A DNA stretch of 41,095 bases from a bacterium (lineage in GTDB: Bacteria > AUK180): the NCBI GenBank assembly GCA_023144005.1, contig JAGLGN010000033.1:1-41095 (forward strand), written 5' to 3'. The translations under genes were made by a program, and so were the position numbers. Shown piece after piece: positions 3,089 to 41,006 of the stretch (positions within the stretch are counted from its first letter, which is position 1; every line of letters begins with the position of its first letter). A model generated the notes under the pieces. The model did no database searches and was not told the DNA's origin. It saw only the letters and a program-made list of their open reading frames with translations.

Positions 3089-3498
3089 GAAAGGCAATGA
3101 ACAATGATGCTTCGTAGAGGCTAGAGGCTGGAGGTTGGAGGTTAATAGAGGGAAATGAAGAATGAAGAATTAACATAAAAATAAGAGAATGATGGGAAAA
3201 TATATGTGGGGAATGTTTTCGTGTGATTTTAAACATTGCGTAGAGTTTACAATTGTTTCACAATTCTCAACTCTCCGCTTGGTACTTCTACATCGGGACA
3301 GACGAACTCCAGCGGAGTACGACATGTCCCCTATCTTGATTGGGGTGCGGCGTGAAACGATTGTAACAGAAGATATAAAGTGGTAAGCGAAATAGCGATT
3401 TTCCGGTTACGGATGTGTTTCTTTTTTCCTTACACACTTGTGCCTTGTGCACTTGTCACTTGTGCTCTGCGAAGCAAAGCCTCTACCCTCTATTTACT
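3089..3498. repeat. Non-coding mosaic of dispersed repeat modules
   Basis: No gene is visible. The stretch is a patchwork of segments found elsewhere in the window. 3117-3140 has gaggttggaggtt-type words, as at 32151-32182. About 3199-3232 is an inverted match to 16622-16650 (cacacgaaaacattc). 3269-3359 is an inverted match to 15681-15775 with roughly 80% identity by eye (shared word ttggggtgcggcgtga). 3384-3426 is a direct match to 9725-9767 (40 of 43). 3436-3469 is a direct match to 16779-16812. The order of modules differs between loci. Confidence 0.75.
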
Positions 3499-15475: not shown

Positions 15476-15789
15476 TTACATTTACGGCATTATTGCAAAA
15501 TCAGCAGTTTATTATTTAACAAATGCTCGACTAACTGCAGCATTCCGGTAGATCAACAGGAAAGTGCACAAGTATTCACGTGTGAAGTGTGAAGTGCAAA
15601 GTGAGGAGAAGAAAGCAATATCCACACCCGTTAACGAAAAACAGTTATATCGTTTACCCCATTAATTCTCCTGTCACAATCATATCACGCCGCACCCCAA
15701 ACAAGATATGGGACGCGCCGTACTCCGCAGGAGTTCGACTGTCCCGGTGCAAAAGTTCCAAGCGAAGAGTTGGACAGGTAGCGGAGCCA
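15476..15789. repeat. Non-coding stretch with inverted module copies
   Basis: No gene is visible. 15581-15632 (gtgtgaagtgtgaagtgcaa...) is an inverted, imperfect copy of 32228-32292. 15681-15775 is an inverted copy of 3269-3359, sharing gccgcacccca and the small hairpin tactccgcaggagt. The stretch runs directly into the repeat array that begins at 15790. Confidence 0.7.
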
Positions 15790-16606
15790 GTGCTCTGATT
15801 CATAAAGACGGTAACAATGGCTGATGCTATTTTAATCCGTATTCAAGGAGCGAGGAACGCCGCATACCCACGGCGGTATGTAAGTAATTAGTGCTCTGAT
15901 CCATAAAGACGTTAACAATGACTGACGCTATTTTGCTCCGTATTCAAGACGCGAGGAGCGCTGCATACCCACAGCGGTATGTAAGCAACTATAGTGCTCT
16001 GATTCAAAATCCGATAACAATGGCTGATGCTATTTTGTTTCGTATTCAAGGAGCGAGGAACGCTGCATACCCACAGCGGTATGTAAGCAACGAGCAACGT
16101 AGAAGACGGCAAAAGAGTCCCAGCCCGAAGGGAATATCATCTTTGGTCAATTTCTTCCTCTCTCTTCGCTCACGGACCACAGAGGGTACGCCGCACTCAT
16201 TGTTCGTTGGAATTGACTCAAATCTAAAAATTCCATTGTCATCTGATTTTAAATCAGAGCACTTGAAACGCAGAAAACAGAAAAAGAGCTTCAGCCCGAA
16301 GGGAATATTACCTTTGGTCAATTTCTTCCTCTCTCTTCGCTTACGGACCACAAAGGGTACGCTGTACTCATTGTTCGTTGAAATGAACTCAAATCCAAAT
16401 ATTTCATTGTCAACGTATTTATAGATCAGAGCACCTGCAACGCAGAAGACAAGAAGAGAGCTTCAGCCCGAAGGGAATATCATCTTTGGTCAATTTCTTC
16501 CTCTCTCTTCGCTCACGGACCACAGAGGGTACGCTGCGCTCATTGTTCGTTGGAATTAACTCAAATCTAAACATTCCATTGTCATCGTATCTATGAATCA
16601 GAACAC
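15790..16606 (+). mobile_element. Array of MITE-like half-units (3 A + 3 B)
   Basis: Three A units (15790-15890, 15891-15993, 15994-16090; about 100 bp) are followed by three B units (16091-16262, 16263-16434, 16435-16606; 172 bp each). Each A begins gtgctctgat(t/c)cat or close to it. Each B ends in the inverse, (a)atcagarcac. A3+B1 together equal the complete 271-bp element at 33011-33281, in the opposite orientation. TA precedes A2 and A3 and follows B3, as expected for a TA-targeting transposon family. An open frame runs through A2 to B2 (15918-16424) and a similar one through B3. No transposase is encoded. Confidence 0.8.
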
Positions 16607-16952
16607 TAAACTCTTTGCCTCACTATTATCACACGAAAACATTCTCCACACATCTTTTAATGTCATTCTGAAGGAGCATAAGCGACCGAATAATCCATCT
16701 CTCTTGCACGTGTGACGTATGGTGTGTAGCGTTTCACGTGAAGAAAATCAAATACCAATTTCTCTTATTCTACTCTCAACTTGTGCCTTGTGCACTTGTT
16801 GCTTGTGCTCTGTTCGCTACCTTGCGAACTACTGTTTACATAATATACGCTATGTGGAATAAATATGTTCGGGCAATAAAAGGGATTCTTTGACATCAGC
16901 TCAAAGAAATTACATCATATTTTTTCAGTTTATAGTTAAAGCAGTATTGCTT
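16607..16952. other. Non-coding stretch after the array
   Basis: From the array's last terminus a 40-codon frame MNQNTKLFASLL... (16594 onward) stays open but resembles no protein. The stretch includes cacacgaaaacattc (shared inverted with about 3215), a gtcattctgaaggagc word of a kind common in bacterial intergenic repeats (from memory), and 16779-16812, shared directly with 3436-3469. No promoter or RNA gene was recognised. Confidence 0.6.
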
Positions 16953-21783: not shown

Positions 21784-21790
21784 TATTCCG

Positions 21791-21823
21791 ACATTGTTAC
21801 TGTCTTTATGAATCAGAGCACTA
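21791..21823 (-). repeat. Isolated A-end of the MITE-like element
   Basis: cattgttactgtctttatg followed by aatcagagcacta equals the reverse complement of the first roughly 32 bases of an A unit, with one substitution. It ends at TA. Only this terminus remains; no B unit is nearby. The terminus's outward ATG is the start codon of the next gene. Confidence 0.75.
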
Positions 21824-22689
21824 ATTCTCCTGCTTCCATCTCACAAAATTTAAATAAGATCGCAGAGAATTGTTCTCTCTGTCCCCTGAATTGCGGAGTT
21901 GACCGACTGAATGGAGAGCTGGGTGCGTGCGGAGTAAACTCACTCAGGATATCTTCGATCAATCTTCATCATGGCGAAGAGCCGCCGATCTCCTGCGGAA
22001 GCGGTTCAGGAACGGTGTTTTTCTCCGGCTGCAGTTTGAATTGTTTTTTCTGTCAGAACTATCCGATCTCGGCTCTGAAGTACGGCAAGGAGTTCTCGGA
22101 AGAAGAACTGATAGAAGAACTTCTTTTACTGCAGGATAGGAAAGCCGCGAATATCAATCTCGTCACACCTACGCATTTATCACACCTTATCATTCCCGTG
22201 ATCGCTAAGGCAAAGAAGAACGGGCTCTCCATACCTATTGCTTATAATACCTCCGGCTATGAATCCCCTGCTATTTTGAAACTGATCGATCCGATGATCG
22301 ACATCTATCTCTATGATATGAAGTATTCGAGTGATCAACTTGCAATTAAGTGCTCAAATGTGACAAATTATGTTGAAAACAATAGAGAGAGCTTTCAGAT
22401 ATTGATAAGGAGCAATAATGAGATCATTGAAGAAGGTAAAATGCTTAAAGGAGTTATCATCCGGCATCTCGTCCTTCCCGGGCAATTAAATAATACATTT
22501 GAAATTCTTGAGTATTTAAGTGCTTTCAAGGAAAAGCTGCACCTCTCGCTTATGTTTCAATATTTTCCCGCTTATAAGGCGGCAGACAACCCCGAATTCG
22601 GGCGCAAGATCAGCTATGATGAGTATAACAAAGTGTTAGAACAATTCGACCGGCTTGGATTTGAAAAGGGTTGGGTACAGGAATTGTAA
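21808..22689 (+). CDS. Radical SAM protein, PflX-like (COG1313)
   Basis: A 293-residue radical SAM enzyme related to pyruvate formate-lyase activases. An N-terminal cysteine set CSLCPLNCGVDRLNGELGACG (in parts, about 22-42) precedes the radical SAM CxxxCxxC motif CSLNCFFCQN (about 73-82), which holds the [4Fe-4S] cluster that cleaves SAM. Further signatures are NLVTPTHL, YNTSGYES, DIYLYDMKY and FQYFPAYKA. Substrate unknown for this family. The ATG lies inside the terminus of a repeat element, has no SD, and is the only ATG, GTG or TTG in frame between the FHA stop and the cysteine motif. The N-terminal MNQST is thus element-derived. Confidence 0.88.
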   Translation: MNQSTNSPASISQNLNKIAENCSLCPLNCGVDRLNGELGACGVNSLRISSINLHHGEEPPISCGSGSGTVFFSGCSLNCFFCQNYPISALKYGKEFSEEELIEELLLLQDRKAANINLVTPTHLSHLIIPVIAKAKKNGLSIPIAYNTSGYESPAILKLIDPMIDIYLYDMKYSSDQLAIKCSNVTNYVENNRESFQILIRSNNEIIEEGKMLKGVIIRHLVLPGQLNNTFEILEYLSAFKEKLHLSLMFQYFPAYKAADNPEFGRKISYDEYNKVLEQFDRLGFEKGWVQEL

Positions 22690-22704
22690 TGTTCTGATTC
22701 ATAT
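22690..22704 (+). repeat. Isolated terminus of the MITE-like element
   Basis: tgttctgattcatata directly follows the stop codon of the radical SAM gene and matches the element terminus g(t)gttctgattcata. It is inverted relative to the terminus at 21791-21823, so the gene is bracketed by two ends. No recognisable A or B interior follows. Confidence 0.6.
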
Positions 22705-32130: not shown

Positions 32131-32379
32131 GATGTTACTAGGGAGAAAATTGAGGTTAGAGGCTTGAGGTTGGAGGTTGGAGTTTGGCTAGAGAATGGGA
32201 GAATGAAAAATGAATAATGAAAGAGGAGCGGGTGTGAATATTGCTTTATTCTCCTCACTTTACACCTCACACACCACACTTCACACTTTCTTTTGCACTT
32301 GTCCCTTCTCCACCTATAAACCTATCACCCTATCAACCTATCGCCCTATCACCCAATATTCCCTTTTCACTACTTGTTA
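32131..32379. repeat. Non-coding module mosaic before tgt
   Basis: No gene. 32151-32182 is a run of gaggttggaggtt-like words similar to 3117-3140. 32228-32292 is an inverted, imperfect copy of 15581-15632. 32311-32352 is a degenerate tandem of cctatcaacctatc-type words of about 8 bases. It lies between the tgt promoter and the phosphatase stop. Confidence 0.7.
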
Positions 32380-33024
32380 TCAGTCATCTCCTATTATTAT
32401 ATCGGTAATTCCTAATGTGCTATTTAATGAAGTCAGAACAAAGCCCGACTCAGGTGAATGCTCTAACGTGGAAATCGAGCAATTATCCAGCCGGAGCTTC
32501 CAAAAATACGGCGCGTTCATTCCCAGTAGACCTGCAATTAAACACTTGAATACGCTGCGGTGTGAAACTATGGCAAAAACGCCGGGCGTCTGGTCATTCC
32601 CTATCAGATCCCTAAGTCCCGCTACAGCCCTTTCCCGTACATCACTGATCATCTCTCCCCCGGGTATAAGCAGGTCTTCGGGAGTACTGAGCCATTTGCG
32701 CCATAGATCGGGATATTGCTTTTGTACATCCGCCTTTGCCTTTGCTTGCCATTCCCCCACATCAATATTCTGAAAGCTGACACATTGCGTGACAGGTGCA
32801 CCGATCTCTGAAGATATTATGTCAGCGGTCTCGATCGATCTTTTCAAAGGTGAGGAAAATATTGCTTCAATACCGAGACCTTTCAGCTTTAATGCTGTTG
32901 TCAACGCCTGTTTACGCCCATTTTCATTTAATGGAATATCCGCTCTGCCTCTGAAGATCGACTCTTTATTATATACTGTTTCTCCATGCCTGATCAGATA
33001 CACTACCCTAGTGTTCTGATTCAT
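32380..33024 (-). CDS. Histidine phosphatase superfamily (phosphoglycerate mutase-like) protein
   Basis: A 214-residue phosphatase. The catalytic RHGETVYN (about 13-20) holds the phospho-accepting His; FRGRADIPLNENGRKQA, SSPLKRSIETADII, GEWQAKAKADV and the second His in VSHRSVFKCLI follow. The last motif has Arg where most members have Gly (SHG). Substrate is not predictable; cobalamin or sugar-phosphate phosphatases are options. Its ATG lies in the terminal inverted repeat of the MITE-like element and gives MNQNT before the native VVYLIRHGE. A GTG just before YLIRHG may be the ancestral start. It follows recX across the 271-bp element. Confidence 0.88.
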   Translation of the reverse strand: MNQNTRVVYLIRHGETVYNKESIFRGRADIPLNENGRKQALTTALKLKGLGIEAIFSSPLKRSIETADIISSEIGAPVTQCVSFQNIDVGEWQAKAKADVQKQYPDLWRKWLSTPEDLLIPGGEMISDVRERAVAGLRDLIGNDQTPGVFAIVSHRSVFKCLIAGLLGMNAPYFWKLRLDNCSISTLEHSPESGFVLTSLNSTLGITDIIIGDD

Positions 33025-33281
33025 AATTGCGACTCCAATGGAATGTTTAGATTTGAGTCAAATCCAACGAACAATGAGCGTGGCGTGCCCTTTATGGTCC
33101 GTAAGCGAAGAGAGAGGAAGAAATTTACCAAAGATAACATTCCCTTCGGGCTGAGGTTCTTTTCCTCCCTTCTGCGTTGCTCATTGCTTACATACCGCAG
33201 TGGGTGTGCTGCGCTCCTCGCGCCTTGAATACGGAACAAAATACCATCAGCCATTGCTGTCGCCTTTATAAAACAGATCAC
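33011..33281 (-). mobile_element. MITE-like element, complete copy
   Basis: A 271-bp A+B unit between recX and the phosphatase gene. Ends are gtgttctgattcataa (33011) and the inverse of gtgatctgttttataa (33281), matching at 13 of 16 positions. Both sides are flanked by TA (33009-33010, 33282-33283), as expected for a TA target duplication (IS630/Tc1-like behaviour, inference). Its minus-strand frame (GTG at 33281, 86 codons) begins on the recX stop and ends in a TGA overlapping the phosphatase ATG (ATGA). The frame contains MADGILFRIQGARSAA and SPKGMLSLVNFFLSLR, shared with the array at 15.8-16.6 kb. No transposase. Confidence 0.8.
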
Positions 33282-33889
33282 TATTCACTTCCGATCACCT
33301 CTCTTATCATATCGTATCTGAATCCCCGCCTTGTCAGGTGATTCAATGCCAGCTGCCTCTTTTTCATCGGATTGCTCTCTTTTCTTCTCGCCATATATTT
33401 ATCAAAGGCCTGCCGGCATACCTCGTGGAAATCCACCTTTTCAAATAAAACCTCTTCCGCTTTCAGCCCTTTTTCATACATTTTCTTTCTGATATATGAC
33501 GGTCCGTACCCCTTGCGGGTCAATGACCTGATCATCGCTTCAGCTGCCCTTTCATCGCAAAGATAATTATTCTCAGACAGTTTATCAATGACCTCATTGA
33601 TAACATCCTGAGGCACCTGCCTCTGCTTCAAACGCTTTCTTAATTCCGCCTCGGAACGCTCCGAATTTCCAAGCCAACGGAGGCAGTAGGAAAGCTCATA
33701 TTTATATAAAGATGTTAAAATCTCCTTATACATATCATCATCTATGTCCTTGATCCTTCGCAGCCTATATCTTGATACTATTCTTTTAGGAAGGTATAGC
33801 TTTTCACCACTTTCAAAAGCTATCAGGACTCGAGTAGTTCGACTTAAGCCTACCTCAATCGAGGAGTTGGTATTAATTATTCTTCTCAT
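33281..33889 (-). CDS. recX: RecX regulatory protein
   Basis: A 202-residue helical protein of the RecX family, which modulates RecA filaments. The typical three-helix repeats are seen: ALNYCLRWLGNSERSEAELRKRLKQR-like SYCLRWLGNSERSEAELRKR (about 67-86), VINEVIDKLSENNYLCDERAAEAMIR (in parts, about 96-121), KGYGPSYIRKKMYEKGL and the last helix with LNHLTRRGFRYDMIREVI. Its TAG stop is formed by the TA target site and the first base of the MITE-like element; the pre-insertion sequence would also have given TAG. The ATG overlaps the batB stop by 4 bp. recA is not in the window. Confidence 0.9.
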   Translation of the reverse strand: MRRIINTNSSIEVGLSRTTRVLIAFESGEKLYLPKRIVSRYRLRRIKDIDDDMYKEILTSLYKYELSYCLRWLGNSERSEAELRKRLKQRQVPQDVINEVIDKLSENNYLCDERAAEAMIRSLTRKGYGPSYIRKKMYEKGLKAEEVLFEKVDFHEVCRQAFDKYMARRKESNPMKKRQLALNHLTRRGFRYDMIREVIGSE

Positions 33890-40928: not shown

Positions 40929-41006
40929 GTTTTTTTGCATATAGTATTTTGATTCATAATGTTAAATGTTGATTGAAAGTATCTGAGATAAGAATCTCTG
41001 TGTTCT

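Follow-up and report, generated by a model that had tools for sequence, protein, structure and literature searches.

The window, a stretch of bacterial DNA 41,095 nucleotides in length, carries on its minus strand a recX gene (33281-33889) followed by a gene for a histidine phosphatase of the His_Phos_1 family (32380-33024). Between them lies a 271-bp MITE-like element (33011-33281, plus strand, GTG...CAC) composed of an A module and then a B module. A TA flanks it on either side (left, 33009-33010; right, 33282-33283), and these are taken to be the two halves of a target duplication, which orthologous empty sites show at two further loci. The 16-bp ends of this copy, GTGTTCTGATTCATAA and GTGATCTGTTTTATAA, are inverted repeats identical at 13 of 16 positions. 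The left end (33011-33026, plus strand) faces the phosphatase and reads outward, on the minus strand, as ATG AAT CAG AAC AC. The right end (33266-33281, minus strand) faces recX and reads outward as TTATAAAACAGATCAC (also given as ATAAAACAGATCAC), with ATA instead of ATG. Inspection of 33009-33283 confirms the imperfect inverted ends and paired TA that an earlier note on this DNA had described; its further statement, that each terminus contains ATG-AAT-CAG-A(A/G)C-AC, fails for the right end of this copy and fits the family consensus. Together with one TA the element measures 273 bp, which is divisible by three, and this copy holds a long open frame on both strands (ORFs of 80 and 86 aa).

The phosphatase reading frame opens ATG AAT CAG AAC ACT AGG, within the element end, in the context GGAGTCGCAATT-ATG-AAT-CAG-AAC-ACT-AGG. 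As had been proposed, the element supplies the putative start codon (33022-33024, minus strand) and the N-terminal residues MNQNT, and position 1 of the Pfam model falls at residue 8. A GGAG motif lies 8 nt upstream of the ATG (33033-33036, minus strand); it is not in the family consensus and presumably arose for translation. On the other side of the element, the recX stop was likewise read correctly as a composite, with the TAG at 33283-33281 of the minus strand formed by the TA flank and the terminal G of the element.

In the genome of this window (G000) the family of the element has 64 matches, of which some 40 are nearly full-length. A genome search with the 16-base terminus at no more than two mismatches returned 160 termini, compared with 0 for the reversed pattern, and these counts together identify a repeat rather than chance. 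The element is also present in G001, the one same-genus genome having it; it is absent from the 59 other genomes searched, among them three other genera of the host family, and a plasmid collection gave no match. Both G000 and G001 are drafts split into many contigs, some of which end in copies of the element. A phosphatase 97% identical to that of the window occurs in record JAGLWT010000087.1 ("bacterium isolate RS_12_30").

Read outward, the consensus end is ATTTATGAATCAGAACACTA, an ATG followed by four stop-free codons. Read inward, it presents an immediate stop (TAG, from TA plus G) or a TGA two codons later, in two of the three frames. The consensus ends pair with one another over about 30 bp, and the modules A and B measure about 172 and 100 nt. 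Compound arrays are found as well, such as the A-A-AB-B-B array at 15788-16609 (minus strand), in which earlier copies hold further ones at their A|B site. Such arrays recur in G000 and G001 with the junction always at the same internal A|B site, and the best explanation is that one copy inserted into another at its A|B site; removal of the inner copy of one array in silico leaves an uninterrupted A|B junction without a gap. The arrays are probably few events amplified as units, since the same inner variant is found in several of them. Miniature versions of about 145 bp that lack the element middle occur at L120 13952-14096, L106 2235-2379 and L111 8876-9018. Copies of the element also sit inside other interspersed palindromic repeats of G000, at recurrent positions (L119, L015, L020, L005, L029 and L089), and uninserted copies of these host repeats exist.

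The element has the features of a bacterial MITE, being short and multi-copy, with terminal inverted repeats and no room for a transposase gene. Duplication of a TA target is seen at two pairs of orthologous loci with empty sites, L120/L165 and L136/L100 (with the pre-insertion codon of L136/L100 deduced). At the LeuRS locus, G001 reads AAATTA-CCCAATCGG, as compared to AAATTA-[element remnant]-TA-GCCAATCGG in G000. At L136/L100, a G001 gene is interrupted at the TA of a TTA codon by the copy at L136 4650-4923, and its orthologue is intact in G000, which suggests that the element was mobile fairly recently. At many copies one flank no longer shows TA, which makes flanking sequence by itself weak support for a TA target; the two empty sites carry the case. 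Insertion without target duplication, in the manner of IS200/IS605 or IS110, had been considered because the flanks vary and because of the way joined flanks align to other copies of repeats, and was dropped in view of these same two sites. Duplication of TA is shared with IS630/Tc1-mariner-derived MITEs, but the IS630-type transposase domain (DDE_3) is absent from both G000 and G001, and the element is not assigned as an IS630 derivative. DDE_Tnp_1 was likewise not found in G000, one partial DDE_3 match came from another genus, and a longer element with GTGTTCTGATTCAT-type ends was not seen in the sampled stretches. Because no matching transposase was found, the element is an orphan MITE-like family.

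A role at the RNA level was considered and dropped. The element folds with z = -3.8, and the terminal-repeat columns covary, such that both ends change together. Covariation is confined mainly to the terminal repeats, where matching ends are pairing ends, and therefore cannot separate RNA structure from co-evolving ends. No Rfam family matches the element, a tRNA being the sole Rfam hit in the window, and no sigma-70-like site for an outward promoter is present in the element region.

To understand how the ends relate to neighboring genes, a weight-matrix scan was applied to about 850 kb of G000 together with chosen stretches of G001, yielding 273 distinct termini, of which 206 carry the ATG. 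Sense-coding frames that run open across the boundary for 60 codons or more were counted and compared with an expectation of one third. In G000 these coding frames are distributed 19:7:4 between the ATG frame and the other two (p = 7e-4), in stretches picked around element copies and with a home-made coding score. Exclusion of genes with their own Shine-Dalgarno start just downstream leaves 13 of 16 in the ATG frame (p = 1e-4), where the Shine-Dalgarno rule and thresholds were set during the work. When an earlier set of termini was scored with a stricter coding threshold, the two genomes together gave 13:2:4, with orthologous loci among the counted cases not independent. The enrichment check suggested in the earlier note thus has a positive outcome, in that termini favor the frame which places their ATG in register with the downstream gene. 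Genes in the ATG frame include those for His_Phos_1, radical SAM, Lnt, RNase III, NamZ, methyltransferase, EFR1 ferredoxin and isochorismatase proteins. These results support start-codon donation, as read from sequence, at the phosphatase and other loci; in the sampled stretches roughly a dozen neighboring genes now appear to start at an element ATG, several of them where the remainder of the copy has decayed. One in-frame case, the P-loop protein at L134, has lost its first glycine, and there the insertion probably broke the gene.

Coding frames that enter an element end fall 18 times in the TAG frame, 13 times in the TGA frame and 6 times in the open frame. That is to say, 31 of 37 meet a TAG or TGA, and in-frame read-through like that of Rickettsia palindromic elements is not the pattern seen. 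The preference for stop frames is weak, as p = 0.017 for both genomes pooled becomes 0.11 in G000 alone. Solo ends in G000 occupy a start or stop role more often than paired ends (13/50 versus 15/128; odds ratio 2.6, p = 0.02).

Comparison with G001 addresses whether element ends persist once the remainder is gone. In G001, recX and the phosphatase are parted by unrelated filler and the element is missing. The phosphatase nevertheless keeps the terminal 29 nt of the element, GGAGTCGCAATTATGAATCAGAACACTAG, identical to G000, and the GGAG is retained as well. An in-frame TAA lies 8 codons upstream of the ATG and no other ATG, GTG or TTG precedes the RHGE motif, which leaves the element-derived ATG as the only standard start possible in G001. 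Within the changed stretch before the phosphatase, GTCGC is complementary to GCGAC at the other end of the copy, which argues that this stretch is element sequence and not an old leader. The earlier note had held that a relative with MNQNT and no element would speak against donation; G001 is literally such a relative, yet its MNQNT is itself the retained element end, so that G001 does not refute donation.

The same pattern of retention is seen at other genes. A solo end at 21787-21823 (plus strand) has its outward ATG at 21808, and this remnant is retained in G001 too. It provides the putative start of the radical SAM gene (21808-22689, plus strand), whose TAA stop comes from another solo end at 22687-22703 (plus strand); that second end is missing in G001, where the gene runs one residue longer. 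The start region ATTTATGAATCAGAGCA is common to both species, and the sequence upstream of it is unrelated. An FHA-domain-like gene upstream of radical SAM also ends in TAG, at the left edge of the remnant. For NamZ, CATTGT...GGTATTTATG is common to both species while the upstream sequence has been replaced, and G001 has an in-frame deletion after the ATG (MKTGLDLF against MNQNTSTGLDLF). The EFR1 ferredoxin gene follows a miniature copy of about 145 bp in both G000 and G001 and begins MNQNTKIFYF, with the family model starting at residue 7, right after the element-derived codons. The isochorismatase gene of G000 has a full copy and the start MNQNTKRELYF. In G001 the copy has collapsed and been rejoined in frame to an upstream ATG, so that the protein reads MMGLISDLNKNTKRELYF; the flanks suggest MMGFTKRELYF as the original start. 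A membrane-protein gene that lacks an element in G000 begins MKKHNRLITS there; in G001 it follows an array and begins MKQRTTRIIAS. Where a native ATG lies close behind an end, the ATG of that end is mutated, to GTA/GTG at L088/L040 and to AGG at L119/L131.

Across six compared genes dN/dS ranges from 0.06 to 0.21, with a value of 0.063 for the phosphatase against G001, which indicates purifying selection on these genes. Given the intact reading frames and low dN/dS, insertion appears to have proceeded without silencing these genes.

The observations are most consistent with a non-autonomous MITE that inserts at TA and whose in-frame outward ATGs became start codons, with the tips outlasting the decayed element, an explanation we hold to be very probable. 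Insertion at TA would duplicate the dinucleotide, and where it fell in a tight gene junction or among first codons it would terminate the gene upstream and give the one downstream a new start. Survivors would be those insertions whose outward ATG chanced to be in frame, this ATG turning into the start codon. The rest of the element would later be lost by decay or replacement, while selection on the gene retained the start-bearing tip. At the phosphatase locus, the element would close recX and start the phosphatase, with GGAG preceding the ATG. From these comparisons we infer that ribosomes initiate at element-derived ATGs.

The ATG could also have been shaped by selection on the element itself. 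A broader reading treats the tips, with a stop inward and an ATG outward, as a portable gene-boundary cassette that repeatedly replaces native starts and stops, where loss of the opposite end would unmask the ATG from its hairpin and the ATG would be maintained on active copies, raising insertion survival at junctions; we regard this reading as doubtful. A rival view, that the element evolved its ATG-bearing end as an adaptation, with gene-restarting copies less harmful and the ATG maintained on active copies, is unlikely. Subfamilies do alter the codons after the ATG in concert at both ends with the ATG mostly kept, and 206 of 273 ends carry it. Conservation of the ATG columns, however, is 0.78-0.95, no better than neighboring end positions and below the 0.95-1.00 of the CAG and CAC tips, and binding of the transposase probably constrains the ends in any case. 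A special, evolved status of the ATG at the ends is thus not supported. Since the ATG is not unusually conserved, its use looks like exaptation by survival; the in-frame cases are better accounted for if an insertion persisted where it left the gene with a start.

Translation might instead begin at native starts further in, the element being an ordinary intergenic MITE and its in-frame ATGs incidental upstream starts. This is the situation at LeuRS, a lipoprotein gene and L087, where a Shine-Dalgarno motif and ATG lie just downstream; for LeuRS and the lipoprotein the native start is the better one despite an in-frame element ATG. A Shine-Dalgarno motif is missing from most ends, and the predicted fold of full copies pairs the ATG with the opposite end (unpaired probability 0.00), both of which speak against efficient initiation in full copies. 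Solo ends are predicted to be more open (0.16-0.41), and loss of the far end may improve initiation. As a general account, incidental starts are quite unlikely: the frame bias is strongest once genes with Shine-Dalgarno starts are removed, the G001 phosphatase offers no alternative standard start, the EFR1 model begins directly behind the element-derived codons, and the ATG is retained in decayed ends. That MNQNT is the native phosphatase start, with the element inserted beside or recombined with a look-alike, draws on the presence of MNQNT without an element in G001 but is highly improbable, as it needs a chance match of 16 consecutive bases to the element end and faces the shared GTCGC complementary to the other end of this copy, the same remnant pattern at other loci, and homologues in other genera that open differently, as MKMNKIIYLLRHGE and MSEKKTIFLIRHGE.

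Start codons derived from terminal inverted repeats are not a new idea, given several precedents. The closest is MITEAba12 of Acinetobacter, whose outward terminal repeat gives neighboring genes at three loci their first residues, MQQS, and which can truncate genes by bringing a stop (PMC6382973). Repeat-supplied starts are common to both elements, but MITEAba12 is 113 bp and related to ISAba12 while the element described here is 271 bp, and the likeness is one of description with no sequence relation seen. The MITEAba12 report describes single fusions, without a frame test or decayed ends as start codons (PMC6382973). ERIC and RU-1 and RU-2 of enterobacteria, which are short, mobile and palindromic, contribute N- or C-terminal portions to annotated genes (PMC2759123); there an internal ORF is fused to the gene, whereas here a fixed five-codon tip serves as the putative start. 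In Streptococcus pneumoniae, RUP is a MITE that likewise lies at TA and for which mobilization in trans by an IS630 transposase has been proposed (PMC2229807, PMC10969869), and pneumococcal repeats also insert into one another (PMC10969869), as copies of the present element do. RUP differs in its length of 107 bp, its stops in all six frames and its known partner IS, no partner having been found here. For the QMITEs of Coxiella, the accessible portion of the report describes insertions that give genes stop codons or C-terminal residues, which resembles the stop donation seen here, and does not describe start donation (PMC5896051). Rickettsia palindromic elements are tolerated in coding genes via their reading frame (PMC10969869) and are read through inside proteins; the present element, in contrast, closes one gene and restarts the next. 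What this case adds is repeated occurrence, a statistical test of reading frame and decayed ends that persist as putative start codons, and a limited search of the open literature found no earlier report of recurrence, frame bias or remnant retention.

These comparisons describe a repeated and concrete route by which a mobile element may alter bacterial start codons and N-termini, including those of Lnt and RNase III, both housekeeping proteins. Where a copy has otherwise vanished, a leftover end of about 30 bp that acts as a start or stop codon would escape ordinary repeat annotation. Initiation at an ATG that mostly lacks a Shine-Dalgarno motif and is buried in a hairpin in full copies becomes testable, as does the filtering of ends by gene frame.

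Further solo ends are present in the window at 755-777 and 40942-40960, where a quick look gave no clear start or stop role. Filler of short GAGGTTGGAGGTT- and GAATGAAGAATT-like repeats occurs at L071 1350-1489 of G001 and in the window at 3115-3143 and 32150-32192. At corresponding gene junctions this intergenic filler differs completely from one species to the other.
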